IMG/VR virus record: IMGVR_UViG_3300042890_000852
Coordinates: 1-21,984 of that record
DNA: 21,984 nucleotides
From: a virus
Strand: one strand, 5' to 3'
The position numbers and the translations under genes were made by a program. The notes under the pieces were generated by a model, which did not search any database, was not told the DNA's origin, and saw nothing but the letters and a program-made list of their open reading frames with translations. Shown here piece by piece: positions 1 through 17,145 of this stretch. The first letter of the stretch is position 1. Every line of letters begins with the position of its first letter.

Positions 1-3000
1 GACGACAATAGAAAGAACGATCTTTTGGTTCCACAAAAATCTAATATTTTTAAACCAACTGAATATTTCATTAAAGAAACAATTGCAGATTTACCAAGAA
101 GAGCAAATTTAAATTTATATCCATATTTTGTAAAGACGGACGAAAATTTGATTAGTATTATGGCCACTAGAAGTTATGATACAGAATCCGAATTATTTAA
201 GTTTGCAGCACATAATATTAGAACCAATAGTAATGGACCTGTTTTAGCAAGAATTAATCAAAATTTATATACCGCAACGGTTGCTAAAAATAAAATAGGA
301 GAAGCGTTATTAGGTAATACTAACACACTAATAAACATTATTAGAGGTAAACAACCTTTAATTGAGGGTAACGAAAAAATTACCGCATCTAGAAGTATAT
401 TAGGTAAAGGAATTGATTTTTTAGGTACCGTGGCGGGAACACAATTACCGTTTAGTACAATACCTGGTGATTACTTAACAAACCCAAGAGCACCCATTAA
501 TGTAAGACCTACAGACGTTTCTACGGGAACTAAGATATGGCAAGATTTAACGGGGGTATTAGGTTCAATTGTAGGTATTCAAAGAAGACCTTTACCAACA
601 AGAAAACCGTCCGACATATTAATTGAAAATATGGGAGACGCCACAAAGTATAGATTATTTGATTTATTAAGTTTCAACGCTTATGCTCCTAACTATACAA
701 CAGGTGCAAGATCACAAATGTCAACTGGATTAGGTAGAATACCAAGTATGGTGGCTCAAGGTGTTAAAAGTATATTAGGTGTTGAGGCGCCAGCCGGAGC
801 TGCATATATTGGAGATGATAGAGCAAATAATGTTAAAAACGCCACTACCGATTTATTTAGTGGTAGACCAATAAGAAGTAGTTATTATCTTTCATTAATG
901 TTTGATACAATTGCTGCTGAACTTTTTCATAGTAATAAAAATATTACACAGGGAGGAAAAATAGGTGGTAAATTAACATGGGCTAGTAAAAATGGAACAA
1001 CCAAAGGTGTAAATTTACAAAATATTAATGAAGATTTATCTACAAGATATAAATTTAGGCCAGATTCAATTTTAGAAATTACTCAACAAATATTAGATTC
1101 AAAACCACAAAATGGTGGAGATTCTTTAGCACATATCGGTCACGTTATAGATCAAACAAGTAGATATTTTAAAGATGGAGACACATTAATATCAAGAGGT
1201 TCAGGTGTAAAATATATAGATAATTCAGGTAGAGATATAGGAGTTGAATATGCAAGAGTATGGACTAAAGATAGACCATATTTTAATTATGGTAATACAA
1301 TGCCGTTTTATAAGGAAACGGAAGATAAACCATATTATAAGGGAGGAGAAACACCATTTAGAAGAAAAGGTATAAGACGTTTTGATGGAAGTGTTATGTC
1401 AGATACATGGAATTTAAATATGGCCCCTATGTCAGACGGAACAACTAATCCTGAATTTCCAGGTTCAACAAATATTGTTAGAGGAGAGAAAAATTTTTAT
1501 GCTAAAAAGTATATGTTGTCAATTGAAAATTTAGCATGGGGTTCATCAACATTACCAGGTTATACAGTAAATGATTTACCTTTCTCAGAAAGAGGACCTA
1601 ACGGAGGTAGAGTAATGTGGTTTCCACCATATGATTTAAAAGTATCTGAACAAAATAGTGCTAAATGGGAATCTAACACATTTTTAGGTAGACCCGAACC
1701 AATTTATACATATCAAAATACTGAAAGAAGTGGAACATTAAATTTTAAAATTGTTGTGGATCACCCAAGTATTATGAATTTACTTGTTAGAGAACATTTT
1801 AAAAATTTAAACGACGAACAGGCGGATGATTATATTAATTCATTTTTTGCAGGAGCAAAAGACATTGATTTTTATAGTTTAATAAGAACATACGCAAATT
1901 TAAATGAAGATGATATTACAGCAATACAGAATTACTTAAACACTAATAAAAATCCGAATGATATTAATAGATTAAAAGACGCCGTTCCAACAATAGTGGA
2001 AAATAATCCTGAAGGAGGTTCAACAAATGATGCTAATAAGAAAAATGAATCATTAAAGGTAAAATTAATATTCCCTAATTCATTTCCAATTAGTGATAGT
2101 GGAACAAGTTTTAAATCAATTCAGAATTATAATGATATTGCTCAATTTTTAAGTGGAACAACAGATCAACAAACTGCATTGGCTAAATTAGAGACTGCAT
2201 TAATTACTATCATTAGTCAAAACGATAAAAAAGATTTAATTAATGTATTTGGAAAAGATAATATAAGTGGACCAGAATCAACACAATCAATTCAAAATGT
2301 TAAAGATGATTTATTAAAAGTTTTTGAAAACCAACAAACAAACTTTGATAGCTTTAAAACGGCAATTGAAAAATTAAAAACAAATATAGAAAATAAAAAT
2401 ATAAATAGCGACATTGTTATTTTAATTGGATCTACAACTTCCGCCACAGGAGATAGTATTAGTGATTATAACTTATCTATGAGGAGATCACATTCTATTG
2501 TTAAATATGTTATAGAAACATTAAACCCATTTATAAAAGATAAGTGGGAGTTTAAAAATGTAACATCAAAAGAGTTTTCACCAGGATTCGAAGTATTCCC
2601 AATTGAAGTTGATTATACCTTAAACTTAGATTTAGGTTTTGATGGTTTAGATAAGTCTATAATTTTTAGAACAATTAATTATGGAAAGCAAAAAAATGTA
2701 GATAATGTTGATTGTGGTAAAGTAACGTATGAAACTCCAAATTTAAACCGATTTTCACCATTATCATATGGATGTAGACAATCTACAGTATCAATCGATT
2801 ACGATACTAAAACGAATGTAGATGGACCTTCAAACGTGTCTAGTATAAGAATGTCACCTACGGGTAATGTTAGTACTAACAAAACTAAACCACCTATTGA
2901 TTTGATGAAAAGAATCATAATGAAAACATTATCTGAAGAGTTTTATTTTAAGAAATTAGAAGAAACGTCTCCAATGATTTATAGTTCATTAAAAGAAAAA

Positions 3001-4593
3001 TTAAGATATTTTCATCCTGGATTTCACTCAATGACTCCTGAAGGTTTGAACTCACGATTGACGTTTTTACAACAATGTTTAAGACCGGGCAACACAATAC
3101 CAATAAAAGGATCATCTGATGATTCCGATATAAATGCGAGAAATACAACATTTGGACCCCCACCTGTTTGTGTAATGAGAGTTGGTGATTTCTATAATTC
3201 AAAAGTTGTGATTAGAGATCTTAATATTCAATTTGAAGAAAACGTATGGGATTTGAATTCTGAAGGTATTGGAATACAACCTATGATTGCAACTGTCACA
3301 ATACAATTGAATTTCTTAGGTGGACAAGGTTTAGAAAGACCTATCGAAAGATTACAAAACGCATTATCATCTAATTTCTATGCAAATACTGAAATGTATG
3401 ATGAAAGATCTGAATCTACTAATACAAAAATAGGAGGTATGGATGCAAATGAATTTACAAAAGAATTCATACAAGGTTTAAACGATAAATTATTTCCACC
3501 AACATTACTAAAAGATAGTCCTAGTAAAAATAACGTATCTGAAGGACAATATATTGGTGCTTTGATAGATGGATCGGCATTAGATTATACGACCGTTATT
3601 GATAATCTTTATAAAAATACAAGTCAATATTTTGTCTCATATGAAAGTTTTTATAATAGTACTCTAACAAAATATGGTAAACATTTAACAAATTTAGTTT
3701 TTAATAAAGATTATCGAACAATAAATGTTTATGATGTGGAAACCGGTGGAGCGGCAACAACTTTAAATTTGTTTGGATTTTATCCTAATGAATCTAGTTT
3801 ACCTTCACTATGTAATCACACTGCCGATTCATTAAAAAGTTATTTAAATGGTCTTAATACAGAAGATAAGTATTATATTTTAAAGATGTTAAAACTTGAA
3901 AACACCATTCCATTAAACGTAAAAGATGATGTTGCAAATGTACTACACTCATATGTGGTAGAACAAATACCATCAAAAATGATCGATTTATCAACGTTTA
4001 AAAATATTACAGATTTTGAAAATAATAGAAATGAATTAATTAAATCTATTGATAATGTTAATTTCATTACAAAATATGGTAGAGACGTTAAAATTGAAAA
4101 AGAAATTATAACAAAAAATATATACAAATTAGATGGGATAACCGATGAACAAAGAAAAGTAGGATTCTATTCAAATTATAGTAATTGTATTGAACACATA
4201 AAAAATAATACCGAAAAGATGTATTCTAAATTAGATACTTCAATTAATTTTTTAAATATACAATATACATTTGAAATTGCTGAGGATATTGTAAGAGTAT
4301 TATTTTACGACGATAAATCATCTATGATTGGTAGAATAGGTATGGCTTTACCTACAACGGATAATGATCTTTTGGATAAAATAACTAAAGAATTAAATCA
4401 ATCACTATACCAACCATCAGAAATTAGTATTAAATTTAGTAAAGATCCGGTTCGTAAAAATGACAAACAAATTAAGATTGATTTGGAACCAATGGGAGAG
4501 TCTCCAGAAGATGTGGTAACTATAGATGAAATTAAAAAGTTATTCGGTTTACCAAATAATGTGACAGATAAATTAAACTATTATAGAAAATGA
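1..4593 (+). CDS. Giant baseplate/tail structural protein with OmpA-like segment (5' partial)
   Basis: The reading frame is open from base 1, so the true start lies left of the window and the TTG at 25 is probably not the start. At least 1530 residues are present. I read it as a virion baseplate or tail protein from its position just before gp53-like and hub-like genes. Three segments stand out. At about nt 1597-1785 there is a block with WFPPYDLKV, then FLGRPEPIYTY, then R-SGTLNFKIVVDH, resembling the first part of contractile-system tube-like domains. At about nt 2050-2620 there is an OmpA/Pal-like pattern, with a strand LKVKLIFPNSF and later VILIGSTTS followed by YNLSMRRSHSIVKYV. At about nt 3163-3390 there is MRVGDFYNSKVVIRDL, VWDLNSEGIGIQPMIATVTI, LGGQG and RLQNAL, resembling the second part of the tube-like fold. 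The stop overlaps the next start (ATGA). That it is a baseplate protein is fairly secure; its T4 counterpart is not identified. Confidence 0.75.
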   Translation, partial: DDNRKNDLLVPQKSNIFKPTEYFIKETIADLPRRANLNLYPYFVKTDENLISIMATRSYDTESELFKFAAHNIRTNSNGPVLARINQNLYTATVAKNKIGEALLGNTNTLINIIRGKQPLIEGNEKITASRSILGKGIDFLGTVAGTQLPFSTIPGDYLTNPRAPINVRPTDVSTGTKIWQDLTGVLGSIVGIQRRPLPTRKPSDILIENMGDATKYRLFDLLSFNAYAPNYTTGARSQMSTGLGRIPSMVAQGVKSILGVEAPAGAAYIGDDRANNVKNATTDLFSGRPIRSSYYLSLMFDTIAAELFHSNKNITQGGKIGGKLTWASKNGTTKGVNLQNINEDLSTRYKFRPDSILEITQQILDSKPQNGGDSLAHIGHVIDQTSRYFKDGDTLISRGSGVKYIDNSGRDIGVEYARVWTKDRPYFNYGNTMPFYKETEDKPYYKGGETPFRRKGIRRFDGSVMSDTWNLNMAPMSDGTTNPEFPGSTNIVRGEKNFYAKKYMLSIENLAWGSSTLPGYTVNDLPFSERGPNGGRVMWFPPYDLKVSEQNSAKWESNTFLGRPEPIYTYQNTERSGTLNFKIVVDHPSIMNLLVREHFKNLNDEQADDYINSFFAGAKDIDFYSLIRTYANLNEDDITAIQNYLNTNKNPNDINRLKDAVPTIVENNPEGGSTNDANKKNESLKVKLIFPNSFPISDSGTSFKSIQNYNDIAQFLSGTTDQQTALAKLETALITIISQNDKKDLINVFGKDNISGPESTQSIQNVKDDLLKVFENQQTNFDSFKTAIEKLKTNIENKNINSDIVILIGSTTSATGDSISDYNLSMRRSHSIVKYVIETLNPFIKDKWEFKNVTSKEFSPGFEVFPIEVDYTLNLDLGFDGLDKSIIFRTINYGKQKNVDNVDCGKVTYETPNLNRFSPLSYGCRQSTVSIDYDTKTNVDGPSNVSSIRMSPTGNVSTNKTKPPIDLMKRIIMKTLSEEFYFKKLEETSPMIYSSLKEKLRYFHPGFHSMTPEGLNSRLTFLQQCLRPGNTIPIKGSSDDSDINARNTTFGPPPVCVMRVGDFYNSKVVIRDLNIQFEENVWDLNSEGIGIQPMIATVTIQLNFLGGQGLERPIERLQNALSSNFYANTEMYDERSESTNTKIGGMDANEFTKEFIQGLNDKLFPPTLLKDSPSKNNVSEGQYIGALIDGSALDYTTVIDNLYKNTSQYFVSYESFYNSTLTKYGKHLTNLVFNKDYRTINVYDVETGGAATTLNLFGFYPNESSLPSLCNHTADSLKSYLNGLNTEDKYYILKMLKLENTIPLNVKDDVANVLHSYVVEQIPSKMIDLSTFKNITDFENNRNELIKSIDNVNFITKYGRDVKIEKEIITKNIYKLDGITDEQRKVGFYSNYSNCIEHIKNNTEKMYSKLDTSINFLNIQYTFEIAEDIVRVLFYDDKSSMIGRIGMALPTTDNDLLDKITKELNQSLYQPSEISIKFSKDPVRKNDKQIKIDLEPMGESPEDVVTIDEIKKLFGLPNNVTDKLNYYRK

Positions 4594-4916
4594 GTAGGGA
4601 TTATTTTGATAGGTATCAGTTTTTTATAGATGATGGTACATTTAGAATTGTACCGGGAATTGAGATCCCAATTAAAGGAACGGATAAGTATATTTTATTT
4701 AAGAAAGGTAAAGACAGATTAGATAAAATGTCACAAGAATATTATGGTGGACCCACTTTTGGATGGTTAATTATGCTAGCAAATCCACAGGCGGGAAGTT
4801 TAGAATTTGATATACCTGATAATTTCTTCATAAGAATACCGTACCCATTAATTAGCTCTTTACAAGATTATAAAAGAGGTGTAGAATTGTATAATCTATA
4901 TTATGGTGAAAAATAA
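4590..4916 (+). CDS. 53: gp53-like baseplate wedge protein with LysM-like motif
   Basis: A 108-residue protein likely to be a baseplate wedge component. The stretch ILFKKGKDRLDKMSQEYYGG followed by FGWLIMLANPQ fits the LysM-like pattern (turn-Gly-D-x-L-x-x-I, then YYG, then W-x-I-x-x-x-N) that marks T4 gp53 and the small LysM tail proteins of contractile systems. The N-terminal part (FDRYQFFIDDG, then IVPGIEIPIKGTDKY) is the usual beta-rich lead-in. It is shorter than T4 gp53. The start overlaps the preceding stop by 4 bases and the end overlaps the next gene by 14 bases, so translation of these three structural genes is probably coupled. All six arginines use AGA or AGG. An alternative is a generic P2 gpX-like LysM tail protein. 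Confidence 0.72.
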   Translation: MSRDYFDRYQFFIDDGTFRIVPGIEIPIKGTDKYILFKKGKDRLDKMSQEYYGGPTFGWLIMLANPQAGSLEFDIPDNFFIRIPYPLISSLQDYKRGVELYNLYYGEK

Positions 4917-7900
4917 CGTAACAAATACTGAAGATATACAAGTAAAAGTTGATCAAAATAATTTAATTTATATTGAACCAAACTCAACTGTTGATGCGGA
5001 TGGAAATGTAAACCCAAGAAACATACAAGCGGAAAAGTTAATTATGTATGTTAATTTAGAGGCGGACATCGTTCCAAGATCTATTTTAGTATCAGATAAT
5101 GAAACTAACACATTAACAAGTATTGCAAGTGGAACCCTTAATTTTCTAAAAAATGGAGACGGACAAGACTATGATACAACATGGACTGACTCATTTTTAA
5201 ATACAGAAGAAAAAAAAGACAATAAAGGTAATCCAACAGGTGAATTTTTTCAATCAGATAAAACTGGACAGTCCTTTGGTATCGATAGTATTTCAATAGA
5301 AATTAAAGGATTTAATGCAATACCACAAGTTCGAATAAATTTTATTGATGTAAGAGGTAAAACATTATTCGAGTCACCTGAAAATTCACCATATAAAGCG
5401 TTCTTTCATATACCTTGGCCAATATTTTATTTAACGGTAAAAGGTTATTATGGTAAAGCGATTAAATATAGACTTCATTTAGTTAAGTTTACAAGTAAAT
5501 TTAATGAATCTAGTGGTAATTTTGAAGTTAGTACAACATTCGTTGGATCAACATATGCGTGGTTGTCCGATATTCCATTACAAGGAATATTAAATGCTCC
5601 ATATCTTTTTCCTAACGAGTCAACACGAACAACTCGTTTTAATGAAACTTTAGGATTAGAAAAAGAAGAATTAAAAAAATCTTCAAGAGGATATGAAATA
5701 TTAAAGACAGTTTATAATGAATATAAATTAAAAGGACTTTTACCAAAAGATTTTCCTGTAAAGACAGTTAGAGAAATCTTAACTATTGCATCTAATTTAG
5801 ATTCATTATTGGAAAAACAAATATTTGATCAAGTGGTCGATATGAGATTATTTGCTGCTATGAAGGAATTTGGTGAAACTATAGATGACTACGAAAAGTC
5901 AGTTAGATCATGGGCGTCAAATAATTTACTTAATACTCCGGTAAATTCATTAAATGAACGACAGCCGGACGGAACTATAGTTCAATATTTTTATACTAAT
6001 AATGCGGACAAAAAGAAAACAACACAAGTATTAGGTGATGGTAACGGAACATTAGAAAATTTATTAAAATTATATGATAAAAAAATAAATGAAAATCAGA
6101 TGTTTACTAATTTTTTATCAAGTAAACCACAACAACCATCTTTAATTAATAACACAACATCTGTTTTTTCAAAAAATAGTTTAGGTATTAACAAAATAGA
6201 GGAAATAAATAAATATTATGTAATTGACAAGGACCAAGGAGGATTTATTGCGGTTGCAATTGAGAAATTGGTTGATGATATTCGAGACGTTAGAAGAAGT
6301 TTTGAACAACAAAGAAATAGATTGGAAAATGATGTGGAGAAAAAAATGAACGAAATTGTTCGTAATAAAAAGAACGGTTTTGGATTTGAACCCACAATTA
6401 GAAATATTTTTGCGGTTATATTAGCCAATGCTGAAGTTCTAATACGTTTAATGAAAGACGTACACAGAAGAGCAATTGATCAGGCGGACACAAGAAAAAA
6501 AGTGGTAGGTGAATTTTCTAAAGAATCAAAAGGAGAGTCGATATATCCATGGCCGGAATTAAAATCAACTATTTTAGGTAAAGAAAATACAATTATTTAT
6601 CCTGGAGACCCCGATTTTCATGTTAGATTAGGTTCGGATGATCCGGTTAGATGGCCTGAAGTTGAGTTTATCGAAACATATATTGGAATCTCTACAAATA
6701 AAGTGGATTCATTATCGAATAAAGAGAGCGGAATTGATAAAAATAAAACACAATTTGAAACTGATACTGATGTTAATAAAATAAAGAAAATTAATACGGC
6801 TAATTCGGTCACTAATATATTACCTTATGTAAATAAAACACCATCATCATTTGTGTATGAAATTTATGAAAGGGCATTAACATATAATTTAGTTGATACA
6901 TTTAATAAAGATACAATTAAAGAATTGGCAAATATTGAATTTCAAAATATATTAGAATCGGTAAAAGGAGATAATAATCTAAGAAAATTATTAAAAGATA
7001 GTATCAAAAGTCAAACTGATCTTTTATTACAATTACAGAAAATTGCACCATTTGAGAGTTATAATTATTATTTAGATAGTTTACCAACAACAGATTATTT
7101 AAAATCATTTTATTCACAATCATATTCCATTAAACAATATTTTCCGATCCGTACATTCAATGACGTTGAAATATATCCAAAATTAAAAAATAATTTATTA
7201 AATTACAGAGTTGATGATTATAGAACAAACATATATCCATTTAGTTCAACGAAATATTTAAGTTATTTAAATCTTAATGGAGCTTCCGTTGAAAAATTCG
7301 GAGTGGACAATTTTACATATCAAGGGTTTTTAGAAATCGACACAACACAAGGATTAATATCTGGTAAAAAGGACTCTAAATTTTGGGTAAAACCTGGTTA
7401 TACTACTAATTTATTTTCAATGCCGATTAATGTTGATAATAATAAAACTAACATATTAAACACCCCATATTTTCATAAACAATTGTTTGCTGATTTTATG
7501 GATACAGATGTTAACGGACCAAACGGTAGATATACGGCATCGGCTTATTTATTTTTAAATTCATTACCTTTTGTTGATTTGGATGATAATGTAAATTACG
7601 ACGGATCAATTATAATGGTTTCATCATTATTTAGGGAAATTAGCACATCACAATATGTTCCATATTTCCTAATGTTGAAATGGGGAGCAATTTATCATAG
7701 ATACAAAAAATATATATTAGAAGGTAAAGATATATTAGATGTTCAAAAAAACACTTTAAATGTTGTTTTGAAGGAAGGATTTTTATCAGGAGGAACTACA
7801 ACAAATATAAACGGAAGTATATTTTTTGATAATCAAAATAACTTAACATTTTATACTAATTCAGATGAGACTCAATCTGTTAAATATACTGGTTATACAG

Positions 7901-10710
7901 ATGTAGGTATACATCCTTATTATGACAATGTTTTTTATAATGTAGTAAACAACGATAGTTTCTTTATATATCTAAGTGGTGATACTGAAAATTATACAAC
8001 CGCAATTACAAATGGAAAATTAAAATTAAAAAAATACGATAGTAGAGGAACCAACAAAATTAATTATTGGACACAATATGTTAATAATGGAAATAATGGA
8101 TATACTTTATTACCGTCCACAGGTGGTAACTTAAATCACGGTAAAAAACAATCATTAGTAAATAATGACACACCATTTAGTGATAATTCTTTCGCGTTAG
8201 AAGAACAAAATAATTTTAGAATTATTTGGGAAGATGAATATATTAATAACACATATAGTGGTAAGACATTTTTCTCTTCAGAAGAGTATAATAGAACAAT
8301 AGATAATTTATATAATTTAAAAGGTAATAACAAAAAAGTATTTGATTTAATTGCGACGTTTAATCCACAAATGTTAGAAGATTTTGAAACTCACTTTTTG
8401 AACTTTGCATCTGAAAAAGTTAATTTAAATTATTCTGATAAATCGTTTAGTTTAACAAAATATGGTAAGTTTCAAGAAGTATTAAGAGACATAGTAAATC
8501 TTTCATATGATAAAAATAGTGATTCTGATAATATTGATACCCAAATTCAGAATTTAAAAATTAAACAGTCTGAAAAATTAAAAACAATTACAACTTCATT
8601 ATTATCAAATAATGATTTAATAAATATAACAATCGGAAACCCAAAAGAGTTAGACCCACATGTAATTAATGGTTTTATTGACATTAATAAAACAGATAAA
8701 TTTAAATATGATACTTACGATTTAACCACACAATCGGGAGATACAAAATATATTCAATTATATGTTGGACCGTATGTAAGTGGAACGTCTTTAAATAATG
8801 AATATTTAGATTTCTTCAAGGATAATAATATTAAAGTAAGTGAATCAAACATATTAATGTTTAGGTCATTAACATACATTTACGCGGGGTATATAAAAAA
8901 CGGTGGAGTACGAGACAAATATACGTTCCAACAATATCTATATAAAAATATTATTTTTAATGGTGAAAATAATACAGGTCTAAATAATAGAATGTCATTA
9001 TTCTTTAGTACTTTGATACCTCAATTTTCATCTTTTAATATTGAAGAACCTAAAAGTAAAATAGATTTTTTTGATGGTTATAATAATAAACCATTAAAGG
9101 TTGAGTTATATAATTTCTTTAAATCTATGAACGATAAGTGGATTGCTGGAAATTCCATAGGTCATAGGTCACTTTTAGAAGAGTTTTTATTTTTAGATAA
9201 GGCTAATAAAGACATAGGTAATGAATATTTTATAGACATATCACGATTACTTAATTTAGGGGAACCCGAAAACATTAAACAAAATTTATTCAGTTCAATA
9301 TCGATATTATTACAAGATACAGGTTTTGATTTAAGAGCATTACCGGCTTATATTAATTTCTATGGAACAAATTTTTCAAACACACCTAAATTAACACCAT
9401 CCAAAAAAATAGCACAAAATATATTTGGAACATTCTTAGAAGTTGATTATCAAGAATCATCACCTAAAATTATTGTACAATATGTAGGTAAAAATTCAAC
9501 AAGACCTGACATGTCAGATAATAAAAAATATAGATTTACTGACGATAGTTTTAATATTGGTAATACTAATAACAATCCAGTTATGATCACTTTACCTAAA
9601 GTATTTCAAACGGGAGATTTATCTAAAACAAATAAAGTAGTTGCATTTGAAGTAAGTTTCGGTGATCAAAACCAAAGTATTTTTAAAGGTATTAGTTTAG
9701 ATCAGGCATCAATTAAAAATACTACAGAGTCGTTTTATGTATTAGAAAACTTGGCTAGAAGTGAATCAGGTTCGTCATCACATAATGTTGATATTGGTTT
9801 ATATGAGTATTATAGACAAGCCGCATATACATGTGAAATAACTTGTATGGGTAATGTTATGATACAACCTACGATGTTTTTCTATTTGAAAAATATCCCT
9901 ATGTTTAAAGGAACATATTGGATTACTGAAGTTGGTCATGAAATTAGAAATAATAATATTGTAACCAAATTTAAAGGATCAAGAATGCCATACACGGCAT
10001 TACCAGATTTGACAGATTCATTTATGTCAAGTTATAGAACATTATTTGATAAACTACAACAAAAGGCAATCAATAGGGTTAATGGTTCAGATAAAGTTAC
10101 GGAAACAAGTGCATCTATTGTCACTGCCGATGGTAGTCAATACACATATGATATGGGTCCTGATAAAAAGAAAGTACCGGGAGAAAAGGTTACTTTAGAC
10201 GATGTGGGAGTAACCGTAAATGGAATACCATATAATGGATTTAATGAATTTAGATATATTGTTCAAGTTGAATATAAAGGTGATAAATGGTTAAGAGCAC
10301 AGGTGGTTAGAATGGGAGAATCAAATTATTCGATGAACGATACGGACAGTATGTCTTTAATAACTAAATCTAATTTTAAACAAGATCCAGCGTTTACTTG
10401 GGGTAATATTAGACAATTTAGTGATAAATATTATTTCTATTCTACTAGATTTATATTAGATAAAATGGATGTTAATGATACTTTAACAAAATATAAAACA
10501 CTTTTCTTAAATCCAAATAAAAATAAAAATATGACTTTATCACACGTATATTCTTTGGATAAGGCTAAACAATCACCAATAGCATTTGGAGGACCTATTG
10601 ACAATATTAGGGATGAAAAGGAATATGGAATCGCTCTATCACCTAAATTAATGAAAGATTTAGATTTACAAGATGGTGATATTGTTTATTTTAAATTGGT
10701 GAAAGTGTAA
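4903..10710 (+). CDS. Giant baseplate hub-type structural protein (1935 residues)
   Basis: A very large virion protein, probably part of the central baseplate or hub. Near the N-terminus (about nt 5270-5610) is a conserved-looking beta-rich block: FGIDSISIEIKG, VRINFIDVRGKTLFE, SPYKAFFHIPWPIFYLTVKG, YYGKAIKYRL, then FVGSTYAWLSDIPL. A middle block (about nt 7540-7720) has AYLFLNSLPF and LMLKWGAIYHRYKKYI. Near the C-terminus (about nt 9790-10010) is YTCEITCMGNVMIQPTMFFY, FKGTYWITEVGHEI and VTKFKGSRMPY, a pattern typical of the hub barrel of the gpD/gp27/XkdQ kind, in which an assembled protein must be of a given type, with a following T...R strand. About 200 further residues follow. No lysozyme catalytic motif is recognised. 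It is much longer than T4 gp27 (about 390 residues). The start ATG at 4903 lies inside the gp53-like gene and has no Shine-Dalgarno. The hub role is inferred. Confidence 0.7.
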   Translation: MVKNNVTNTEDIQVKVDQNNLIYIEPNSTVDADGNVNPRNIQAEKLIMYVNLEADIVPRSILVSDNETNTLTSIASGTLNFLKNGDGQDYDTTWTDSFLNTEEKKDNKGNPTGEFFQSDKTGQSFGIDSISIEIKGFNAIPQVRINFIDVRGKTLFESPENSPYKAFFHIPWPIFYLTVKGYYGKAIKYRLHLVKFTSKFNESSGNFEVSTTFVGSTYAWLSDIPLQGILNAPYLFPNESTRTTRFNETLGLEKEELKKSSRGYEILKTVYNEYKLKGLLPKDFPVKTVREILTIASNLDSLLEKQIFDQVVDMRLFAAMKEFGETIDDYEKSVRSWASNNLLNTPVNSLNERQPDGTIVQYFYTNNADKKKTTQVLGDGNGTLENLLKLYDKKINENQMFTNFLSSKPQQPSLINNTTSVFSKNSLGINKIEEINKYYVIDKDQGGFIAVAIEKLVDDIRDVRRSFEQQRNRLENDVEKKMNEIVRNKKNGFGFEPTIRNIFAVILANAEVLIRLMKDVHRRAIDQADTRKKVVGEFSKESKGESIYPWPELKSTILGKENTIIYPGDPDFHVRLGSDDPVRWPEVEFIETYIGISTNKVDSLSNKESGIDKNKTQFETDTDVNKIKKINTANSVTNILPYVNKTPSSFVYEIYERALTYNLVDTFNKDTIKELANIEFQNILESVKGDNNLRKLLKDSIKSQTDLLLQLQKIAPFESYNYYLDSLPTTDYLKSFYSQSYSIKQYFPIRTFNDVEIYPKLKNNLLNYRVDDYRTNIYPFSSTKYLSYLNLNGASVEKFGVDNFTYQGFLEIDTTQGLISGKKDSKFWVKPGYTTNLFSMPINVDNNKTNILNTPYFHKQLFADFMDTDVNGPNGRYTASAYLFLNSLPFVDLDDNVNYDGSIIMVSSLFREISTSQYVPYFLMLKWGAIYHRYKKYILEGKDILDVQKNTLNVVLKEGFLSGGTTTNINGSIFFDNQNNLTFYTNSDETQSVKYTGYTDVGIHPYYDNVFYNVVNNDSFFIYLSGDTENYTTAITNGKLKLKKYDSRGTNKINYWTQYVNNGNNGYTLLPSTGGNLNHGKKQSLVNNDTPFSDNSFALEEQNNFRIIWEDEYINNTYSGKTFFSSEEYNRTIDNLYNLKGNNKKVFDLIATFNPQMLEDFETHFLNFASEKVNLNYSDKSFSLTKYGKFQEVLRDIVNLSYDKNSDSDNIDTQIQNLKIKQSEKLKTITTSLLSNNDLINITIGNPKELDPHVINGFIDINKTDKFKYDTYDLTTQSGDTKYIQLYVGPYVSGTSLNNEYLDFFKDNNIKVSESNILMFRSLTYIYAGYIKNGGVRDKYTFQQYLYKNIIFNGENNTGLNNRMSLFFSTLIPQFSSFNIEEPKSKIDFFDGYNNKPLKVELYNFFKSMNDKWIAGNSIGHRSLLEEFLFLDKANKDIGNEYFIDISRLLNLGEPENIKQNLFSSISILLQDTGFDLRALPAYINFYGTNFSNTPKLTPSKKIAQNIFGTFLEVDYQESSPKIIVQYVGKNSTRPDMSDNKKYRFTDDSFNIGNTNNNPVMITLPKVFQTGDLSKTNKVVAFEVSFGDQNQSIFKGISLDQASIKNTTESFYVLENLARSESGSSSHNVDIGLYEYYRQAAYTCEITCMGNVMIQPTMFFYLKNIPMFKGTYWITEVGHEIRNNNIVTKFKGSRMPYTALPDLTDSFMSSYRTLFDKLQQKAINRVNGSDKVTETSASIVTADGSQYTYDMGPDKKKVPGEKVTLDDVGVTVNGIPYNGFNEFRYIVQVEYKGDKWLRAQVVRMGESNYSMNDTDSMSLITKSNFKQDPAFTWGNIRQFSDKYYFYSTRFILDKMDVNDTLTKYKTLFLNPNKNKNMTLSHVYSLDKAKQSPIAFGGPIDNIRDEKEYGIALSPKLMKDLDLQDGDIVYFKLVKV

Positions 10711-10960: not shown

Positions 10961-11638
10961 ATGTTAGAGAAAAAATTATTAGAAGAAGTAAAACGTTTTA
11001 ATTCCATCAATAAGTATGGTAAGAAAATGATTATGGAGCAAGATGCTCCACCACCTGCAGACGCCCCAACAGACGCTCCACCACCTGCAGATGAACCAAC
11101 GGATGTTCCGGCTCCTCCTCCACCTCCAGCAGGTGATATGGGTGGCGACGTTCCACCTCCTCCAGCAGGTGATATGGACACACCTCCAATGGATGATGCG
11201 GGTATGGGTGGTGACACAGAAGAAATTGATATTACAGATTTAGTTAATATGACCAAGAATATTAAGAATGATCTTGAAAGTAACAAACAAGATAATTCTG
11301 CGGTTATTAATAAAATGGATGACGTATTCACTAAATTGAATGACTTAGAAAGTAAATTGGCTCAAATGGACCAAGTTATGGCTAAGATTGATCAATTAGG
11401 GGCAACAGTTGAGGCTAACAAACCTAAAAGTGAAGTTGAAAAATTGGAAATGAGATCTTTGGATTCATACCCATTCAACGAAAAACCACAAGAGTTTTTT
11501 GCACACAAACAAGGTGAAATGAGAGCAAGTGGTAAGAATGAATATGTTTTAACTAAAGATGATGTTGACAATTATCCAGTTGATCAAATAAGATCGTCAT
11601 TTAACCAAGAAGACCAAAAAGATGAATATAGCTTCTAA
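10961..11638 (+). CDS. Pro/Ala-rich repeat and coiled-coil protein, possibly virion or prohead component
   Basis: A 225-residue protein in three parts. Residues 1-25 are a basic helix (MLEKKLLEEVKRFNSINKYG). Residues about 27-85 are low complexity, rich in Pro, Ala, Asp and Gly, with repeats of DAPPPAD and PPPPAGDM. Residues about 88-150 are a predicted coiled coil with regular hydrophobic spacing (IKNDLESNKQDNSAVINKMD onward). A C-terminal segment carries SLDSYPFNEKPQEFF. It has no Cys. The transition KMIME-QDAPPP has the I-x-E form cleaved by T4-type prohead proteases, so the basic leader could be removed during head maturation; that is inference. It overlaps the following gene by 17 bases. 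I do not recognise a named family. Confidence 0.68.
   Translation: MLEKKLLEEVKRFNSINKYGKKMIMEQDAPPPADAPTDAPPPADEPTDVPAPPPPPAGDMGGDVPPPPAGDMDTPPMDDAGMGGDTEEIDITDLVNMTKNIKNDLESNKQDNSAVINKMDDVFTKLNDLESKLAQMDQVMAKIDQLGATVEANKPKSEVEKLEMRSLDSYPFNEKPQEFFAHKQGEMRASGKNEYVLTKDDVDNYPVDQIRSSFNQEDQKDEYSF
11041..11091 (+). repeat. 30-bp tandem repeat, two copies, coding for DAPPPADxPT
   Basis: Bases 11041-11061 and 11071-11091 match at 20 of 21 positions with a 30-bp period. They encode two 10-residue units (DAPPPADAPT and DAPPPADEPT) in the Pro-rich part of the coiled-coil protein. The repeat is in frame, so copy-number change would lengthen the linker without breaking the gene. Confidence 0.8.
11123..11177 (+). 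repeat. 36-bp-period direct repeat coding for PPAGDM
   Basis: A 19-bp identical sequence occurs at 11123-11141 and 11159-11177, a 36-bp period (12 residues). It encodes the repeated PPAGDM motif, immediately downstream of the 30-bp repeat in the same low-complexity linker. The two repeat families differ in period and sequence. Confidence 0.78.
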
Positions 11639-11993
11639 AATAAAGTTCTTAATGGAACTTCAGGCTCAAGTTAAGATTAACCATTGGCAAACCAAAGGTT
11701 ATGCAAGACATAACGCTTTTGATAAGTTGTACGAAGGATTAGTTGATTTGACAGACACGTTTGCTGAGGCCGCGATGGGTAAGTACGGTAGATTTAAATT
11801 AGAAAATGAAGATAAAACATTAAACGTTGTAAATTTATCTGAATTGGATTTAAAGAACATGTTACAAACATCTAAAGAGGCGTTAATCCAATGGAGTAGT
11901 GAGTTTGATTCAACAGATACGGATTTATTGAATATCCGTGATGAGATTTTAGGACTATTAAATAAAATAACATATCTATTAACATTAGAATAA
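11622..11993 (+). CDS. Short helical protein with Dps-like motif (DUF5856-like)
   Basis: A 123-residue, mostly helical protein. Near the N-terminus it has NHWQTKGYARHNAFDKLYEG followed by LVDLTDTFAE, which resembles the NWHxKGxxFxxLHxxFExLYxExxDxxDxxAE signature of Dps/ferritin-like proteins. From memory it fits the phage-associated family DUF5856; I could not check this. It is shorter than Dps (about 160 residues) and appears to keep only the first two helices well, with a leucine-rich second half ending NKITYLLTLE. H20 and D34 in the motif correspond to positions used for metal binding in Dps, but a full ferroxidase site is not evident. It starts inside the end of the coiled-coil gene, suggesting translational coupling. 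Role in the phage is unknown. Confidence 0.66.
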   Translation: MNIASKIKFLMELQAQVKINHWQTKGYARHNAFDKLYEGLVDLTDTFAEAAMGKYGRFKLENEDKTLNVVNLSELDLKNMLQTSKEALIQWSSEFDSTDTDLLNIRDEILGLLNKITYLLTLE

Positions 11994-12342: not shown

Positions 12343-13185
12343 ATGAGTACATTTGATGCAGTACTTGCACAGTACGAGAAAAACAAAAACGCCACAGGTG
12401 GCAACAACAACAAGATATCCTCAGAGGATAGATTAAAACGTTATTTCACAACCGTATTACAAAAAGGTTCTAAAGGTGAAGAAAGACGTATCCGTATTTT
12501 ACCTACAAAAGATGGTTCTTCACCATTCGTAGAGGTAAAGTTCCACGAAGTTCAAGTGGACGGAAAATGGGTTAAATTATATGACCCAGCACAAGAAGGA
12601 AAACGTTCTCCATTAAATGAGGTTTACGAAGGATTGATGATGAGTGGTGTAGATTCTGACAAAGAATTAGCACGTAACTACCGTTCTCGTAAGTTTTATA
12701 TCGTTAAAGTGATCGATCGTGATCATGAAGCTGATGGAGTTAAATTTTGGAGATTTAAACATAATCACAAAGGTGATGGTGTTATTGACAAAATCTTCCC
12801 AATCTTCCGTAATAAAGGAGATGTTACCAATCCTGAAAATGGTCGTGATTTGATCTTGTCTTTGGCTTTAACAAAAGCGGGAACAGGTAAAGAATACACA
12901 GTTATCAATTCAGTATTAAACGACGATCCAAGTCCATTACATACTGACGCAGACGTTGCAAAAACGTGGTTAGATGATGAGTTAACTTGGTCTGATGTTT
13001 ACTCTAAAAAGGGTGAAGATTATTTAGAAATGGTTGCAAGAGGTGAAGTTCCACGTTGGGATACAGCAAGTAGCAAATGGGTTTCTAATTTAACAACAGA
13101 AGAAACTATCGGAGCACCGAAGTCTTCTACGCCTGTTGTTGATCCACAAGATGATGCAGATGTAGATGGTGATTTACCATTTTAA
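12343..13185 (+). CDS. 32: gp32-like single-stranded DNA-binding protein
   Basis: A 280-residue ssDNA-binding protein expected to coat single strands in replication and recombination. The order of parts matches T4 gp32 (301 residues): an N-terminal basic region, an OB-fold core with RRIRILP, FVEVKFHEV, KFYIVKVIDR and KFWRFKHNHKG, a block with GRDLILSLALTKAGTGKEY, and a flexible acidic tail. Two things are unusual. The protein has no cysteine at all, so the zinc site of T4 gp32 is absent; the equivalent loop here is short (SPLNEVYE). The last residues, DDADVDGDLPF, look like the acidic tip of bacterial SSB rather than the T4 gp32 tail. Arginine is encoded by CGT in 11 of 15 cases, unlike the tail genes. 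It heads the replication cassette, directly followed by uvsX. Confidence 0.9.
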   Translation: MSTFDAVLAQYEKNKNATGGNNNKISSEDRLKRYFTTVLQKGSKGEERRIRILPTKDGSSPFVEVKFHEVQVDGKWVKLYDPAQEGKRSPLNEVYEGLMMSGVDSDKELARNYRSRKFYIVKVIDRDHEADGVKFWRFKHNHKGDGVIDKIFPIFRNKGDVTNPENGRDLILSLALTKAGTGKEYTVINSVLNDDPSPLHTDADVAKTWLDDELTWSDVYSKKGEDYLEMVARGEVPRWDTASSKWVSNLTTEETIGAPKSSTPVVDPQDDADVDGDLPF

Positions 13186-13196
13186 TTATTAACGGA

Positions 13197-13228
13197 GGGG
13201 TGGAGATAACGTCAGAAACCCCATTTTT
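13197..13228 (+). promoter_or_regulatory. Weak hairpin with T tract between gene 32 and uvsX
   Basis: A 5-bp stem, GGGGT at 13197-13201 with ACCCC at 13218-13222, encloses a 16-base loop and is followed by ATTTTT. It sits in the 54-bp gap between gp32 and uvsX and is the only G/C-rich spot there. It could be an attenuator, a partial terminator or an mRNA structure; the stem is short, so function is uncertain. The purine run GGAGGGG is too far from the uvsX start (about 40 bases) to act as a ribosome site. Confidence 0.4.
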
Positions 13229-13239
13229 AAAAACAAATT

Positions 13240-14220
13240 ATGGCAGGTATTAAAAAAACAGACTTTTCGGCAATTAAGAAGAAATTCTCTAAAGAGGCCG
13301 AGTACAAACCAGATCGTTTTTTCGATTTGGGTAATGCCTTCTTAGATGCATGTGGTATTCCGGGTCCTGCAATGGGTCACATCAATATGTTATTAGGACA
13401 TAGTGATACGGGTAAAACAACCGCACTTGTAAAGTCAGCGGTAGATGCTCAAAAGAAAGGTGTTGTTCCTGTGTTTATTATTACTGAACAAAAATGGAGT
13501 TGGGATCATGCCGAGTTAATGGGGTTTGATAGAAACGGAGATTATCTTTTTAACAGTGATTTTGAGTACATTGAACAAATCACAGATTATATCAATGAAT
13601 TATTAGACGCACAAGAGAAAGGAGATTTACCTCACGATTTATTAATCTTATGGGATTCAGTAGGTTCGGTTCCATGTAAGATGACTTACGATGGTAAAGG
13701 TGGTAAACAACACAATGCGTCGGTTTTAGCGGACAAAATTGGAATGGGTATCAACCAACGTATTTCAGGTTCAAGAAGAACAGATAAACCTTACACGAAC
13801 TCTTTAATCATTGTTAACCAACCTTGGGTAGAATTACCTGATAATCCTTTCGGACAACCGAAGATTAAGGCAAAAGGCGGTGAAGCAATTTGGTTAAACT
13901 CAAGTATCGTTTTCTTGTTCGGTAATCAAAAAGGAGCGGGAACAACAAAAATCTCTATCACTAAAGATAAGAGAAAAGTAAAAATTGCAACAAGAACAAA
14001 AATCTCAATTATGAAAAACCACATCAATGGTTTAGGATATGAGGATGGACGTATCTTGGTTACATCACACGGATTTATGCCAGGTAGAGAAGATTCTGAA
14101 GAGAAGAAATCTATCGAGGATTATAAAAAAGAAAGTGGTGATTACATCAGTAAGATGTTAGGTGTTAATGTTACAGACATCACAGACGTAGAAGTTGTAA
14201 CAGAAGAAAGTGATCTTTAA
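13240..14220 (+). CDS. uvsX: UvsX-like RecA-family recombinase
   Basis: A 326-residue RecA-family strand-exchange ATPase, expected to form filaments on ssDNA and drive recombination-dependent replication. Walker A is GHSDTGKT at residues 53-60. The catalytic glutamate is E83 in FIITEQKWSW, and Walker B is LLILWDS at 134-140 with D139. Downstream, SLIIVNQPW and KAKGGEAIW match the L1/L2-flanking region, and a basic block (TKDKRKVKIATRTKI) precedes a GLGYEDGRILVTSHGF segment seen in UvsX-type proteins. The length suits T4 UvsX (about 390) without its longer ends. It lies 54 bp after gene 32 and 9 bp before the nuclease gene. A cellular RecA is unlikely because the N-terminal RecA helix region and typical C-terminal domain are absent. 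Confidence 0.92.
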   Translation: MAGIKKTDFSAIKKKFSKEAEYKPDRFFDLGNAFLDACGIPGPAMGHINMLLGHSDTGKTTALVKSAVDAQKKGVVPVFIITEQKWSWDHAELMGFDRNGDYLFNSDFEYIEQITDYINELLDAQEKGDLPHDLLILWDSVGSVPCKMTYDGKGGKQHNASVLADKIGMGINQRISGSRRTDKPYTNSLIIVNQPWVELPDNPFGQPKIKAKGGEAIWLNSSIVFLFGNQKGAGTTKISITKDKRKVKIATRTKISIMKNHINGLGYEDGRILVTSHGFMPGREDSEEKKSIEDYKKESGDYISKMLGVNVTDITDVEVVTEESDL

Positions 14221-14229
14221 ATTTAACAA

Positions 14230-15264
14230 ATGTCGGTTTTACTTGTTGATGGGGATAATCTATTAACTATTGGTTATTACGGAGCGAAGAATGTGTTTTA
14301 TAAGGGAACTCACATTGGTGGTATCTACCACTTTCTAAACACCCTAAGAAGATCTTTTGAGGAATACCAATTAGACAAGATCGTTGTTTTTTGGGACGGT
14401 CAAGAAGGATCACAAAGTAGAAGAACAATTTATTCTCACTACAAGGAAAACAGAAGACAAAGAGTTAGAACAGAAGAAGATTTACAATCTTACTTATATC
14501 AGAGAGATAGAATTAAACAATATCTTGAAGAACTATATGTAAGACAAGGGGAATTTGAGTATTGTGAGACTGATGACAACATCGCTTACTATACTCAAAA
14601 CTCACCCGAAGAAAGAAAAATTATTTATTCATCAGACGGGGATTTAACTCAACTCGTTTCAGAAAACACACAAGTTTACAATCCTTCACACAGGAAATTA
14701 TATTCACAGAATGATATAATCGTTTACGAACACGAAGAAATTCTCATAGAGAATGTTCGTTTGGTTAAAATGATATGTGGAGACTCATCAGATAACATTG
14801 CAGGAATAAGAGGAATGGGGCTTAAAAGATTTTTATCTTTGGTTCCTGAACTAAAAAATCAACCAATCACGGTTGATCAGGTTAAAGATAGATGTAACCA
14901 ATTATTTGAACAAGACAAACATAATAAGTTAATTGCTAATTTATTGACAGGTGTTACAAAACACGGTGTACTTGGTGAGGAATTCTTCGACGTAAACAAT
15001 AGAATTGTAAGTTTGGATGAACCGTTTTTAACGGATGACGCAAAAGAGGTTATTAACCTATTGATAAATGAATCATTAGACCAAGAAGGTAGATCATATA
15101 AAAACGCAATGAAGATGATGCAAGAAGATGGACTCTTCAATGTACTACCAAAATCAGAAGATGCGTGGATAAATTTTTTAAACCCTTTTCTAAGATTAAC
15201 AAGAAAAGAAAAAAATATTAACAACAATATAAAAAAAACAATTAAAGTAAGACCCTATGAGTAG
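14230..15264 (+). CDS. rnh: T4 RNase H-like 5'-3' exonuclease/flap endonuclease
   Basis: A 344-residue FEN-family nuclease, probably removing RNA primers and flaps during lagging-strand synthesis. The two-metal acidic residues can all be placed: D7 and D9 in LLVDGDN, D56 in IVVFWDG, E113/D115/D116 in CETDDNIAYY, D136/D138 in IYSSDGDLTQLV, and D185/D188 in CGDSSDNIAG. The conserved basic patch YKENRRQR (about 71-78) and the helix-hairpin-helix-like GIRGMGLKR (192-200) follow the family pattern. The length is close to T4 RNase H (305 residues). It begins 9 bp after uvsX and overlaps the next gene by 8 bases. It could equally be labelled a generic phage 5'-3' exonuclease, but linkage with gp32, UvsX and gp41 supports the T4 Rnh role. 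Confidence 0.88.
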   Translation: MSVLLVDGDNLLTIGYYGAKNVFYKGTHIGGIYHFLNTLRRSFEEYQLDKIVVFWDGQEGSQSRRTIYSHYKENRRQRVRTEEDLQSYLYQRDRIKQYLEELYVRQGEFEYCETDDNIAYYTQNSPEERKIIYSSDGDLTQLVSENTQVYNPSHRKLYSQNDIIVYEHEEILIENVRLVKMICGDSSDNIAGIRGMGLKRFLSLVPELKNQPITVDQVKDRCNQLFEQDKHNKLIANLLTGVTKHGVLGEEFFDVNNRIVSLDEPFLTDDAKEVINLLINESLDQEGRSYKNAMKMMQEDGLFNVLPKSEDAWINFLNPFLRLTRKEKNINNNIKKTIKVRPYE

Positions 15265-15715
15265 AGATTACCAAAACCAAGACAACATAACAAAATTTGA
15301 ATTCTTGTTGTCATTAGAAGGACATATCGTATGTCAGAGATTTTTTAATGTTAGAGATCATGTTGACCAAGCTAGACGTTCAATGGATCTTCACTATTAT
15401 GTAAAAAATATTTGTGAAGATTTTATGGAAGATTTGAAAATAAAAAGTTCCAACTATCTATGTGAGAATCAAAACTATATCCTCAATTCAGAGGTTGTGG
15501 ATGAGTCGGCAACACCAGAAAAAGAACATTTTTTATTGGAAATTAAGTTGGGGGAGGATGTATTTATTCAAAGACAGTTCCCCGCATATCTTTATCATCC
15601 AAAGGCAAGATATACAGTTGATATTCGACCAAGATTGAAGAGAATTCTTTCCGATCTTACGGATATTTTATCTTCGGAAGAATTGGAAACAAGTTATTTA
15701 GGACACGAATTATAA
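15257..15715 (+). CDS. Unknown protein of the replication cassette (152 residues)
   Basis: A 152-residue soluble protein that I do not recognise. It has a beta start (KFEFLLSLEGHIVCQRFFNV), a helix (DQARRSMDLHYYVKNICEDF), a second beta portion (FLLEIKLGEDVFIQRQFPAY) and a basic stretch (DIRPRLKRIL), ending in a short acidic helix. There is no Walker motif, membrane segment or Cys cluster. It starts 8 bases inside the end of the nuclease gene and the helicase gene begins 24 bases after its stop, so it is co-expressed with replication enzymes. Position would allow a helicase-loader or replication-accessory role, but nothing in the sequence shows one, and the beta content does not look like T4 gp59. 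Confidence 0.7.
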   Translation: MSRDYQNQDNITKFEFLLSLEGHIVCQRFFNVRDHVDQARRSMDLHYYVKNICEDFMEDLKIKSSNYLCENQNYILNSEVVDESATPEKEHFLLEIKLGEDVFIQRQFPAYLYHPKARYTVDIRPRLKRILSDLTDILSSEELETSYLGHEL

Positions 15716-15739
15716 GAAAAAAAATATATAATAAACACT

Positions 15740-17116
15740 ATGGAAGAAAGGAATTTTGGGTATTTGGGGTTTTCGTTTCAACAATCCCTTATCAAAGCAA
15801 TTATTGAAGATAAGAAGTACGGAGAAACAATTATTGATGTATTAGAGAGTAAGTTTTTTGATAATAACTCATTTAGATTTATTATGGAAAACACAAAGGA
15901 GTTGTATAAAAATTACAACAAAATCCCCGATTACAATACATTGGCACAGAAAATCATGGCTGAAGGTGGTAACAAAGATTCCTCTAAAATTCATGTGGAC
16001 ACATTAGAAGCAATTAAAAACAACGAATCTCAAATTGAGTATGTAAAAGATACGGCACTTAACTTCTGTAAACAACAAAACTTGAAAAGAGAGTTGAAAA
16101 GTGTACAGAGTATTATTGAAAGTGGTGAGTTTGAGGCTTACAATAAGATTGAGGAAATCATTCAAAAGGCATTACAAGTTGGTATCTCAAATGATGAAGC
16201 AACAGATGTATTCCATGATATTGATGGAGCGTTAGAAAAGGACTTTAGACACCCATTACCGACAGGTATCGTGGGAATCGACAACTTACTTAAAGGTGGG
16301 TTAGGGATCGGAGAATTGGGGGTTGTATTAGCACCTACGGGTACTGGTAAGACTACCTTACTTACTAAGTTTGCTAATACCGCATATAACTTAGGTTATA
16401 ACGTTGTTCAGATTTTCTTTGAAGACAATCCGGGTAATATTAAAAGAAAACACTATACGATTTGGACTGAAATTGCACCTGACTCTCAACCTGAATTTAA
16501 GGATGAAGTTAAAGCAAAAGTTGAAGAGGCTCAGGCTAAATCTAAGGGTAGTTTGAAGTTATTAAAATTGGCAAGTGATAATGTTACAGTTTCTGAGATT
16601 AAAAATAAAATCAGAAAGATGAACTCAGAGGGAGGTAAAAAAGTCGACTTATTAGTATTAGATTACGTTGATTGTGTATCAACCGATAAATCTACTAATG
16701 GTGAAGAATGGAAAGGTGAAGGATCAGTTATGAGAAGTTTAGAGTCTATGACATCTGAATTTCAAATGGCAATATGGACCGCAACACAAGGTAATCGTGA
16801 ATCAATTTCATCTGAAGTTGTTACGGGAGATCAAATGGGAGGTTCAATTAAGAAAGCACAAATTGCTCACGTTATATTATCTATTGGTAAAACATTAGAA
16901 CAAAAAGAACATAATTTGGCAACACTTACGTTATTAAAATCACGTATCGGTAGAGATGGTGTTGTATTCCAAAACTGTAAATTCAATAACGAGTTCCTTC
17001 TTATTGATACAGAGTCTCAAAACACTTTATTGGGACATGAAGAGCAAAAAGTTCAGATAAACGCCAACAGAGCCGCTGAAGCGTTTAAAAGGAGACAACA
17101 AGTGGCAACTAAATAA
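15740..17116 (+). CDS. 41: gp41-like replicative DNA helicase (DnaB family)
   Basis: A 458-residue hexameric replicative helicase. The N-terminal helical part (residues 1-150) matches the place of the DnaB/gp41 N-terminal domain. The linker GALEKDFRHPLPTGIVGIDN leads into the RecA-like core. Walker A is APTGTGKTT at 198-206, the catalytic glutamate is E228 in QIFFEDN, Walker B is VDLLVLDYVDCV around 302-312 with D308, and the H3 motif is WTATQGNRES with Q350. The arginine-finger region is LLKSRIGRDGV. This order is the standard DnaB-family layout and the size is near T4 gp41 (475). It sits between the unknown 152-residue gene and the reductase, in the cassette with gp32, UvsX and Rnh. No primase gene is visible in the window. 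Confidence 0.93.
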   Translation: MEERNFGYLGFSFQQSLIKAIIEDKKYGETIIDVLESKFFDNNSFRFIMENTKELYKNYNKIPDYNTLAQKIMAEGGNKDSSKIHVDTLEAIKNNESQIEYVKDTALNFCKQQNLKRELKSVQSIIESGEFEAYNKIEEIIQKALQVGISNDEATDVFHDIDGALEKDFRHPLPTGIVGIDNLLKGGLGIGELGVVLAPTGTGKTTLLTKFANTAYNLGYNVVQIFFEDNPGNIKRKHYTIWTEIAPDSQPEFKDEVKAKVEEAQAKSKGSLKLLKLASDNVTVSEIKNKIRKMNSEGGKKVDLLVLDYVDCVSTDKSTNGEEWKGEGSVMRSLESMTSEFQMAIWTATQGNRESISSEVVTGDQMGGSIKKAQIAHVILSIGKTLEQKEHNLATLTLLKSRIGRDGVVFQNCKFNNEFLLIDTESQNTLLGHEEQKVQINANRAAEAFKRRQQVATK

Positions 17117-17145
17117 TAAACACAAACATAAAGTAAAAAGAACAA

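Follow-up and report, generated by a model that had tools for sequence, protein, structure and literature searches.

Does the giant protein encoded at the start of this viral DNA carry a domain of the OmpA/Pal type and, if so, what could such a domain do in a phage tail? The stretch analysed (21,984 nucleotides of IMG/VR record IMGVR_UViG_3300042890_000852, positions 1 to 21,984; hereafter, the window) opens inside a long ORF for which a preliminary description had proposed, at nucleotides 2050-2620, a peptidoglycan-binding segment within a giant baseplate protein. The motifs on which that proposal was built are present in frame 1 of the plus strand (LIFPNSFP, nt 2065-2088; GSTTS, nt 2428-2442; LSMRR, nt 2473-2487). 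The domain lies in the proposed region, but its end was set too early: it continues to about nt 2802, and the added part comprises more strands, a Gly in a loop, two Cys residues and a final strand whose Arg is conserved. The Cys pair may correspond to the disulphide of E. coli OmpA. The features of the locus are collected in Table 1. The carrier ORF lacks some 50-75 N-terminal residues with respect to its relatives, as estimated from matches that start at about residue 51-73 in most relatives matching from window residue 1-15, and its nearest relatives span about 1590 residues from stop to stop.

Table 1. Features of the carrier ORF and of the genes next to it (nucleotide positions in the window).
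Feature	Position	Strand	Basis or remark
Tail-tube-initiator-like giant protein	1..4593	+	5'-open ORF, 1530 residues; 5' end outside the window
First half of tube-like barrel (W..N.FLGRPEPIYTY...ERSG...VVDHPS)	1507..1797	+	Column identity 0.87-0.90; hhalign; VIA-align of model
Whole insertion between barrel halves: helical lead-in (FFAG...), linker, OmpA-like domain, return segment	1843..3009	+	Window residues 615-1003
OmpA/Pal-like domain	2056..2802	+	Window residues ~686-934; profiles, AlphaFold2, Foldseek, VIA-align
Pocket signature GSTTSATGDSISDYNLSMRR	2428..2487	+	Insert alignments, HMMER alignments; residue roles from excerpts of PMC8253398
Cys905 ... Cys925-Arg926, Cys pair and Arg before last strand	2713..2784	+	Conserved
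Second half of tube-like barrel (FGPPPVCVMRVGDFY...GIGIQPM...LNFLGG)	3025..3330	+	Column identity 0.81-0.87; weak co-linear profile match; model
Small LysM/gp53/tail-X-like baseplate protein, next gene downstream	4590..4916	+	phrog_7145 baseplate wedge, E 4.3e-6
1935-aa protein in hub position	4903..10710	+	By position; no convincing Pfam/PHROG match

The fold was approached through structure prediction. AlphaFold2 modelled residues 680-932 with a mean pLDDT of 92.1 and a pTM of 0.90, and placed strands and helices in the OmpA order. The best PDB row in Foldseek was an OmpA C-terminal domain (E 1.3e-2, probability 0.96), none of the rows reaching 1e-3, and the search of BFVD gave at best E 0.47, with an uncultured Caudovirales protein. 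A second look at the Foldseek matches with VIA-align superposed the model on A. baumannii OmpA (3td3_A) with Z 9.4, over 112 of 120 residues at 2.4 Å, followed in lower rows by Pal, TagL, OprF and YfiB domains; for a larger model of residues 470-1150, Z with the same chain was 9.9. The gap between the first strand and GSTTS, previously described as longer than usual, is indeed long, and the model adds its nature: it is helical, with four helices, the last of 41 residues.

Profile searches led to the same family at scores under the Pfam threshold. For the whole ORF, PF00691 was the top Pfam family (residues 775-839, E 0.034, 14.9 bits, cut-off 27.2), and its match to the window's record (E 6.0e-5, 17.9 bits) was also under that cut-off. 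When the domain alone was compared with Pfam, the helical family OVT1 came first (E 0.004) and PF00691 second (E 0.0072), an order that was repeated with the whole insert. At least 598 relatives of the window protein were confirmed in IMG/VR, of which 80 were kept, and the 48 sequences left after thinning (window included) were aligned. PF00691 appeared at E<=0.1 in 19 of these 48, the next families in 2; in another 26 sequences, which covered more divergent clades, it appeared in 13 (best E 1.9e-5), any other family in one at most; and seven of ten divergent inserts matched it at E<=0.1, the exceptions being L105, L128 and L137. Wherever bits were shown, the cut-off of 27.2 was never reached (0/9 related records and 0/10 divergent inserts, best 25.3), and such a domain is thus easily missed. 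Searched against PDB sequences, the 48-row profile was led by a helical mismatch (8qox, E 9.4e-4), OmpA domains coming next at E 0.0024 and worse; its hemagglutinin rows matched only the long-helix stretch and were set aside. A later 26-sequence profile returned 34 rows, the first 11 of which were OmpA-type domains, with a best E of 1e-5 (alignment A4 comprises 26 of the 66 inserts described below). The two checks that had been suggested for the domain, searches by profile and fold and a structure prediction, both came out in favour of it, with OmpA/Pal/TagL/MotB domains in the one case and the OmpA topology (pLDDT 92) in the other. Taken together, the predicted structure and the profiles confirm that residues ~686-934 form an OmpA/Pal-like domain with the fold of the OmpA C-terminal domain.

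The sequence around the domain was compared with distant homologues. With the whole ORF, tblastn found nothing at E<=1e-5 among 50,697 phage records, and with the barrel halves it gave weak matches only (best E 0.5). Those to Flavobacterium phage immuto, Microcystis phage Mel-JY01 and the uncultured 484-kb phage LR756508 became useful through synteny and profile comparison, and those to Erwinia, Pectobacterium and Mycobacterium were discarded as chance. Among the divergent relatives, the L131 insert drew a single Staphylococcus phage match (E 0.9) and a 1441-residue stretch of the L128 protein none at E<=0.01. In immuto, Mel-JY01 and LR756508 the homologous domain is continuous. The first half of the window barrel matched it in hhalign with probability 91.7 and E 7.6e-7; the second half matched in the right order, weakly (E 0.0076, probability 5). 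The matched halves stand 27 profile positions apart in these three phages and about 460 residues apart in the window protein, and none of the three proteins matched the OmpA profile. Together with the model described next, these comparisons show that the conserved segments around the OmpA-like domain match, in order, both halves of one continuous tail-tube-type barrel, and that the domain is an insertion. A profile of the three outgroup barrels found nothing in the PDB, and PHROGs returned one family (E 0.24) for one of the three.

The 470-1150 model had a mean pLDDT of 62, with low confidence outside the OmpA part. Besides OmpA-type domains at model residues ~200-470, the 50 entries listed by VIA-align for this model included baseplate entries from AFP, PVC, phiCD508, diffocin, P1, T4, phi812, A-1(L) ('baseplate-initiators'), R2 pyocin, AlgoCIS, Mu, Milano and others, the best being 6rao_G (Z 10.5, 142 residues, 4.9 Å, on a low-confidence model). 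The baseplate matches aligned 114-174 residues, with first and last aligned model residues at ~3-35 and 637-647, and match ends so placed suggest that these alignments skip over the OmpA part. Foldseek alone ranked the baseplate chains lower (9gtp_M, E 0.058, probability 0.92). The A-1(L) chains are named as initiators in the title of their PDB entry, and we assume that the other matched baseplate chains are tube initiators as well. With flanking halves that match tube-type baseplate chains in the model, and with the gene order described below, the carrier looks like a tail-tube initiator; the earlier assignment to the baseplate stands and becomes more exact. The C-terminal part of the protein (window 3478-4590) has no assigned fold.

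We examined how widely the insertion is distributed. The core profile matched 157 ORFs strongly; four truncated ones without an insert boundary (L099, L123, L154 and L155) were left out, and the other 153, some from the same contig twice, were thinned at 90% insert identity to 67 non-redundant proteins. An insert of more than 200 residues was found in 66 of the 67, window included. L115, L117 and L118 are included on the strength of their insert lengths and of the signature in the alignment; searches of L115-L119 with OmpA profile A1 stayed without a match at E<=1e-3, and the Pfam OmpA family matched L115 and L118 weakly. The remaining protein, L101, has 127 residues at the insert position, without an OmpA-profile match, and represents (L101:2383-6513) a naturally occurring form of the tube-initiator-like protein that lacks this domain. 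No PF00691 match was found anywhere on its contig (102.8 kb, perhaps incomplete), which says little because two of eight other records (G003 and G004) carry the insert and give no such match either. In a tree of the rest of the protein, L101 fell within the OmpA-bearing relatives (96 SH-aLRT; midpoint root, L101 on a long branch). This position disfavours, with the same reservations about branch and root, the idea that L101 preserves the ancestral state. A single loss in L101 is the simplest reading of these sequences; on that reading the domain would go far back in the history of the family.

The residues that bind the peptide in OmpA had been described as not clearly kept, and the alignments separate two cases: the Asp is lost in all 66 inserts, but the Arg is kept in all 66. 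In the HMMER alignments Ser814 (nt 2440-2442) occupies the Asp position, which holds Ser in 64 and Thr in 2 of the 66 non-redundant inserts (window included). Leu825 and Arg829, the latter equivalent to the peptide-binding Arg of OmpA, are invariant (66/66 each), and the Asn three residues before the Leu is present in 65, the exception being the window itself (Asp822). According to the excerpts of PMC8253398, Asp486, Asn494, Leu497 and Arg501 of TagL contact diaminopimelate, wall binding is lost when Asn494, Leu497 or Arg501 is mutated, and Ser498 and Ala502 also matter; the corresponding excerpt on PA0833 (PMC5974059) names Asp271 and Arg286 of A. baumannii OmpA. At the position of TagL Ser498, Ser occurs in 43/66 inserts, and at that of Ala502, Ala occurs in 3/66. 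Towards the end of the domain, the loop Gly, the second Cys and the Arg after it are found in 66/66 and the first Cys in 61/66. Conservation reaches >=90% in 18 of the 253 columns, and the four pocket columns all belong to these 18 (hypergeometric P 1.8e-5). The signature positions also shape the fold, and their conservation is not proof of binding.

Outside these positions the domain varies considerably. Over the 48 aligned sequences, mean column identity was 0.87-0.90 in residues 501-600 and 0.81-0.87 in residues 1001-1150, against 0.38-0.53 in the OmpA stretch (651-950), 0.70-0.72 in the lead-in and return segments, and 0.42-0.59 in the C-terminal part (1151-1530). In eight chosen pairs of these sequences, which are not independent since the window, L005 and L006 recur, dN/dS was 0.10-0.67 in the OmpA part, 0.05-0.13 in residues 60-610 and 0.01-0.08 in residues 985-1140, the OmpA part lying above both adjoining flanks in 8/8 pairs. 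For the C-terminal part (1160-1525) the values were 0.12-0.26, the OmpA part being higher in 6/8 pairs and lower in 2/8. That variability singles out the OmpA-like domain is weakened by this similarly variable C-terminal part: judged from the alignments, the domain is freer than the barrel, and not alone in being so. A fixed pocket with a variable surface fits a ligand-binding module whose surface changes, although the domain may instead be a variable structural part.

Gene order provided a further line of comparison. In the relatives, the giant-protein gene is placed between the tape measure and the LysM/hub genes, the window itself starting inside the gene, with a hub-subunit homologue upstream and a LysM/gp53-like homologue downstream. 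The ORF of 630-700 residues upstream is a putative tape measure, by position and one weak match (E 0.009). Immuto shows the order hub subunit, tape measure, small ORF, barrel protein, 102-aa LysM/gp53-like protein and large protein with a C-terminal VanY domain. Mel-JY01 and LR756508 share with it and with the window the barrel domain, the downstream LysM/gp53-like gene of about 100 aa and then a large gene; the hub subunit and tape measure upstream are additionally shared by immuto. The small downstream protein matched Phage_gp53 in Pfam at E 0.066, under the cut-off; its near-identical relative in L001 matched the 102-aa protein of immuto (E 9.7e-5), and the Mel-JY01 counterpart matched Phage_tail_X at E 0.041, also under the cut-off. 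The N-terminal part of the 1935-aa hub-position protein is common to divergent relatives at the same place, whose ORFs are truncated where the loci end. In immuto the large protein at the corresponding place (L082:6841-9657) ends in a VanY D-Ala-D-Ala carboxypeptidase domain (E 6.6e-10), a wall-cutting activity near the tube-initiator gene.

Farther along the window, a small protein (11622-11993; DUF5856, E 7.7e-21; PHROG 858, 'starvation-inducible transcriptional regulator', E 5.5e-20) lies between the tail and replication genes. The latter (12343-19407: gp32-like SSB, UvsX/RecA-like recombinase, 5'-3' exonuclease, DnaB-like helicase and ribonucleotide reductase) separate the hub module from the gp25/gp6 baseplate genes. 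The gp6-like baseplate protein (20065-21894) matched at E<=1e-5, in tblastn among the 50,697 phage records, only four immuto records, Mel-JY01 and LR756508 (25.7-27.8% identity), marking a group of contractile phages that has been sampled poorly. In GTDB genomes, a scan with A2 produced 40 pattern matches, none of them confirmed as a relative, so that no bacterial host can be named.

What the domain does can be addressed from sequence, model and analogy. The preliminary description had suggested that it could hold or read the cell wall during injection; it may do so in an altered way, or be structural only. The explanation that we place first, at not quite an even chance, is that it is a modified wall-peptide-binding module at the tube base. 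The carrier would form a ring of six around the tail-tube base, each copy sending its OmpA-like domain outward at the baseplate. Sheath contraction would bring the tube base to the periplasm, where the domains would meet the wall and, by way of the Asn/Leu/Arg pocket, bind the peptide stem of peptidoglycan or something closely similar; they would then hold the tube at the wall, or position it there, during DNA passage. The change of Asp to Ser could then be read as altered specificity or as weaker, reversible binding, and the variable surface as adaptation to host envelopes. From the residues alone, the lost Asp argues against canonical peptidoglycan binding and the kept Asn, Leu and Arg for a modified, putative one. 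Counting against this explanation are the universal absence of the Asp, the Asp that replaces Asn in the window, the scarcity of Ala at the Ala502 position and the partial retention of Ser at the Ser498 position, together with the PF00691 scores under the cut-off and the low confidence of the barrel model. Nor is the domain indispensable, because the L101 lineage has the protein without it.

A close rival, to which we give a little more than one chance in three, holds that the domain has ceased to bind peptidoglycan and connects the tube base, hub and wedges, as LysM does elsewhere. Loss of the pocket Asp throughout the family agrees with it, as does L101, which lacks the domain but retains the rest of the gene, and, in the excerpts of the respective papers, the LysM module of Alg7, the AlgoCIS tube initiator, reaches and contacts the wedges (PMC8894135) and that of the Mu tube initiator gp43 is called a structural component (PMC11915804). 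The C-terminal part is also about as variable, so that variability does not mark the domain as host-facing. A packed connector, however, might be expected to match the conservation of the barrel, and the identities are 0.38-0.53 against 0.81-0.90; dN/dS exceeds that of both flanks in all eight pairs while the pocket columns stay fixed, and a separate LysM/gp53-like protein is encoded next door. A mimic that recognises some other ligand in the host envelope, such as a protein that partners host OmpA or Pal, could account for a variable surface and an altered pocket, but we consider it improbable. Chance resemblance of an unrelated alpha/beta domain is by far the least credible reading. It could draw on the single-sequence Pfam scores under the cut-off, on OVT1 outranking OmpA for the domain alone, on the modest Foldseek E and on the helical mismatch that led the first PDB profile search. 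It is opposed by the profile with E 1e-5 and OmpA-type domains in its first 11 rows, by the VIA-align Z of 9.4 over nearly all of 3td3_A, and by a signature kept through strong divergence.

The module can be set beside known systems. Phage genomes do encode proteins named OmpA, BFVD rows including ones from Cellulophaga phage phi17:2 and virus sp. ctML55. Among the open-licence PMC papers listed in literature searches, none describes, by its title and the beginning of its abstract, an OmpA-like domain in a phage tail protein. With the C-terminal domain of OmpA/Pal/MotB (PF00691; A. baumannii OmpA 3td3-3td5, E. coli OmpA 2mqe, Pal 1oap) the domain of this family shares the fold, the order of strands and helices, the LSxRR motif with the peptide-binding Arg, and the Leu, and in 65/66 inserts, though not in the window, the Asn. 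It differs in having Ser or Thr for the pocket Asp and an enlarged helical stretch that separates the GSTTS strand from the first strands, in sitting inside a tail protein, and in scoring under the Pfam cut-off.

The LysM-bearing tube initiators offer a parallel in place. Afp7 and Pvc7 are tail-tube initiators with a LysM module. Alg7 and Mu gp43 resemble the window protein in barrel fold, in their place between tape measure and hub, and in having an extra module of wall-binding type, but in the window protein this module is OmpA-like and lies between the barrel halves, and the LysM-like protein is encoded by a separate gene beside it. Some tube initiators have a LysM module that is interpreted as structural despite the wall-binding type of its fold, and here a tube-initiator-like protein bears a second, unrelated wall-binding fold. 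If our preferred reading of a modified wall-binding module is true, modules of this type at the tube base would be a recurrent solution, and the locus would offer a direct test of whether they make contact with the wall or do no more than keep the baseplate together. TagL of type VI secretion (5m38, 7bba) likewise places an OmpA-type domain on a contractile machine, but as an accessory of the membrane complex that anchors the machine in its own cell and with the pocket Asp present (excerpts of PMC8253398), whereas here the domain lies inside a phage tail protein. We would tentatively propose, as a possibility that is less than even, that a group of uncultured contractile phages dock the tube base to the host wall by means of an altered-pocket (Ser for Asp) OmpA module in the tube initiator, with a surface adjusted to the walls of their hosts. 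Such a module would be the phage equivalent of the anchors TagL (in type VI secretion) and MotB (in flagella), but working from outside the cell.
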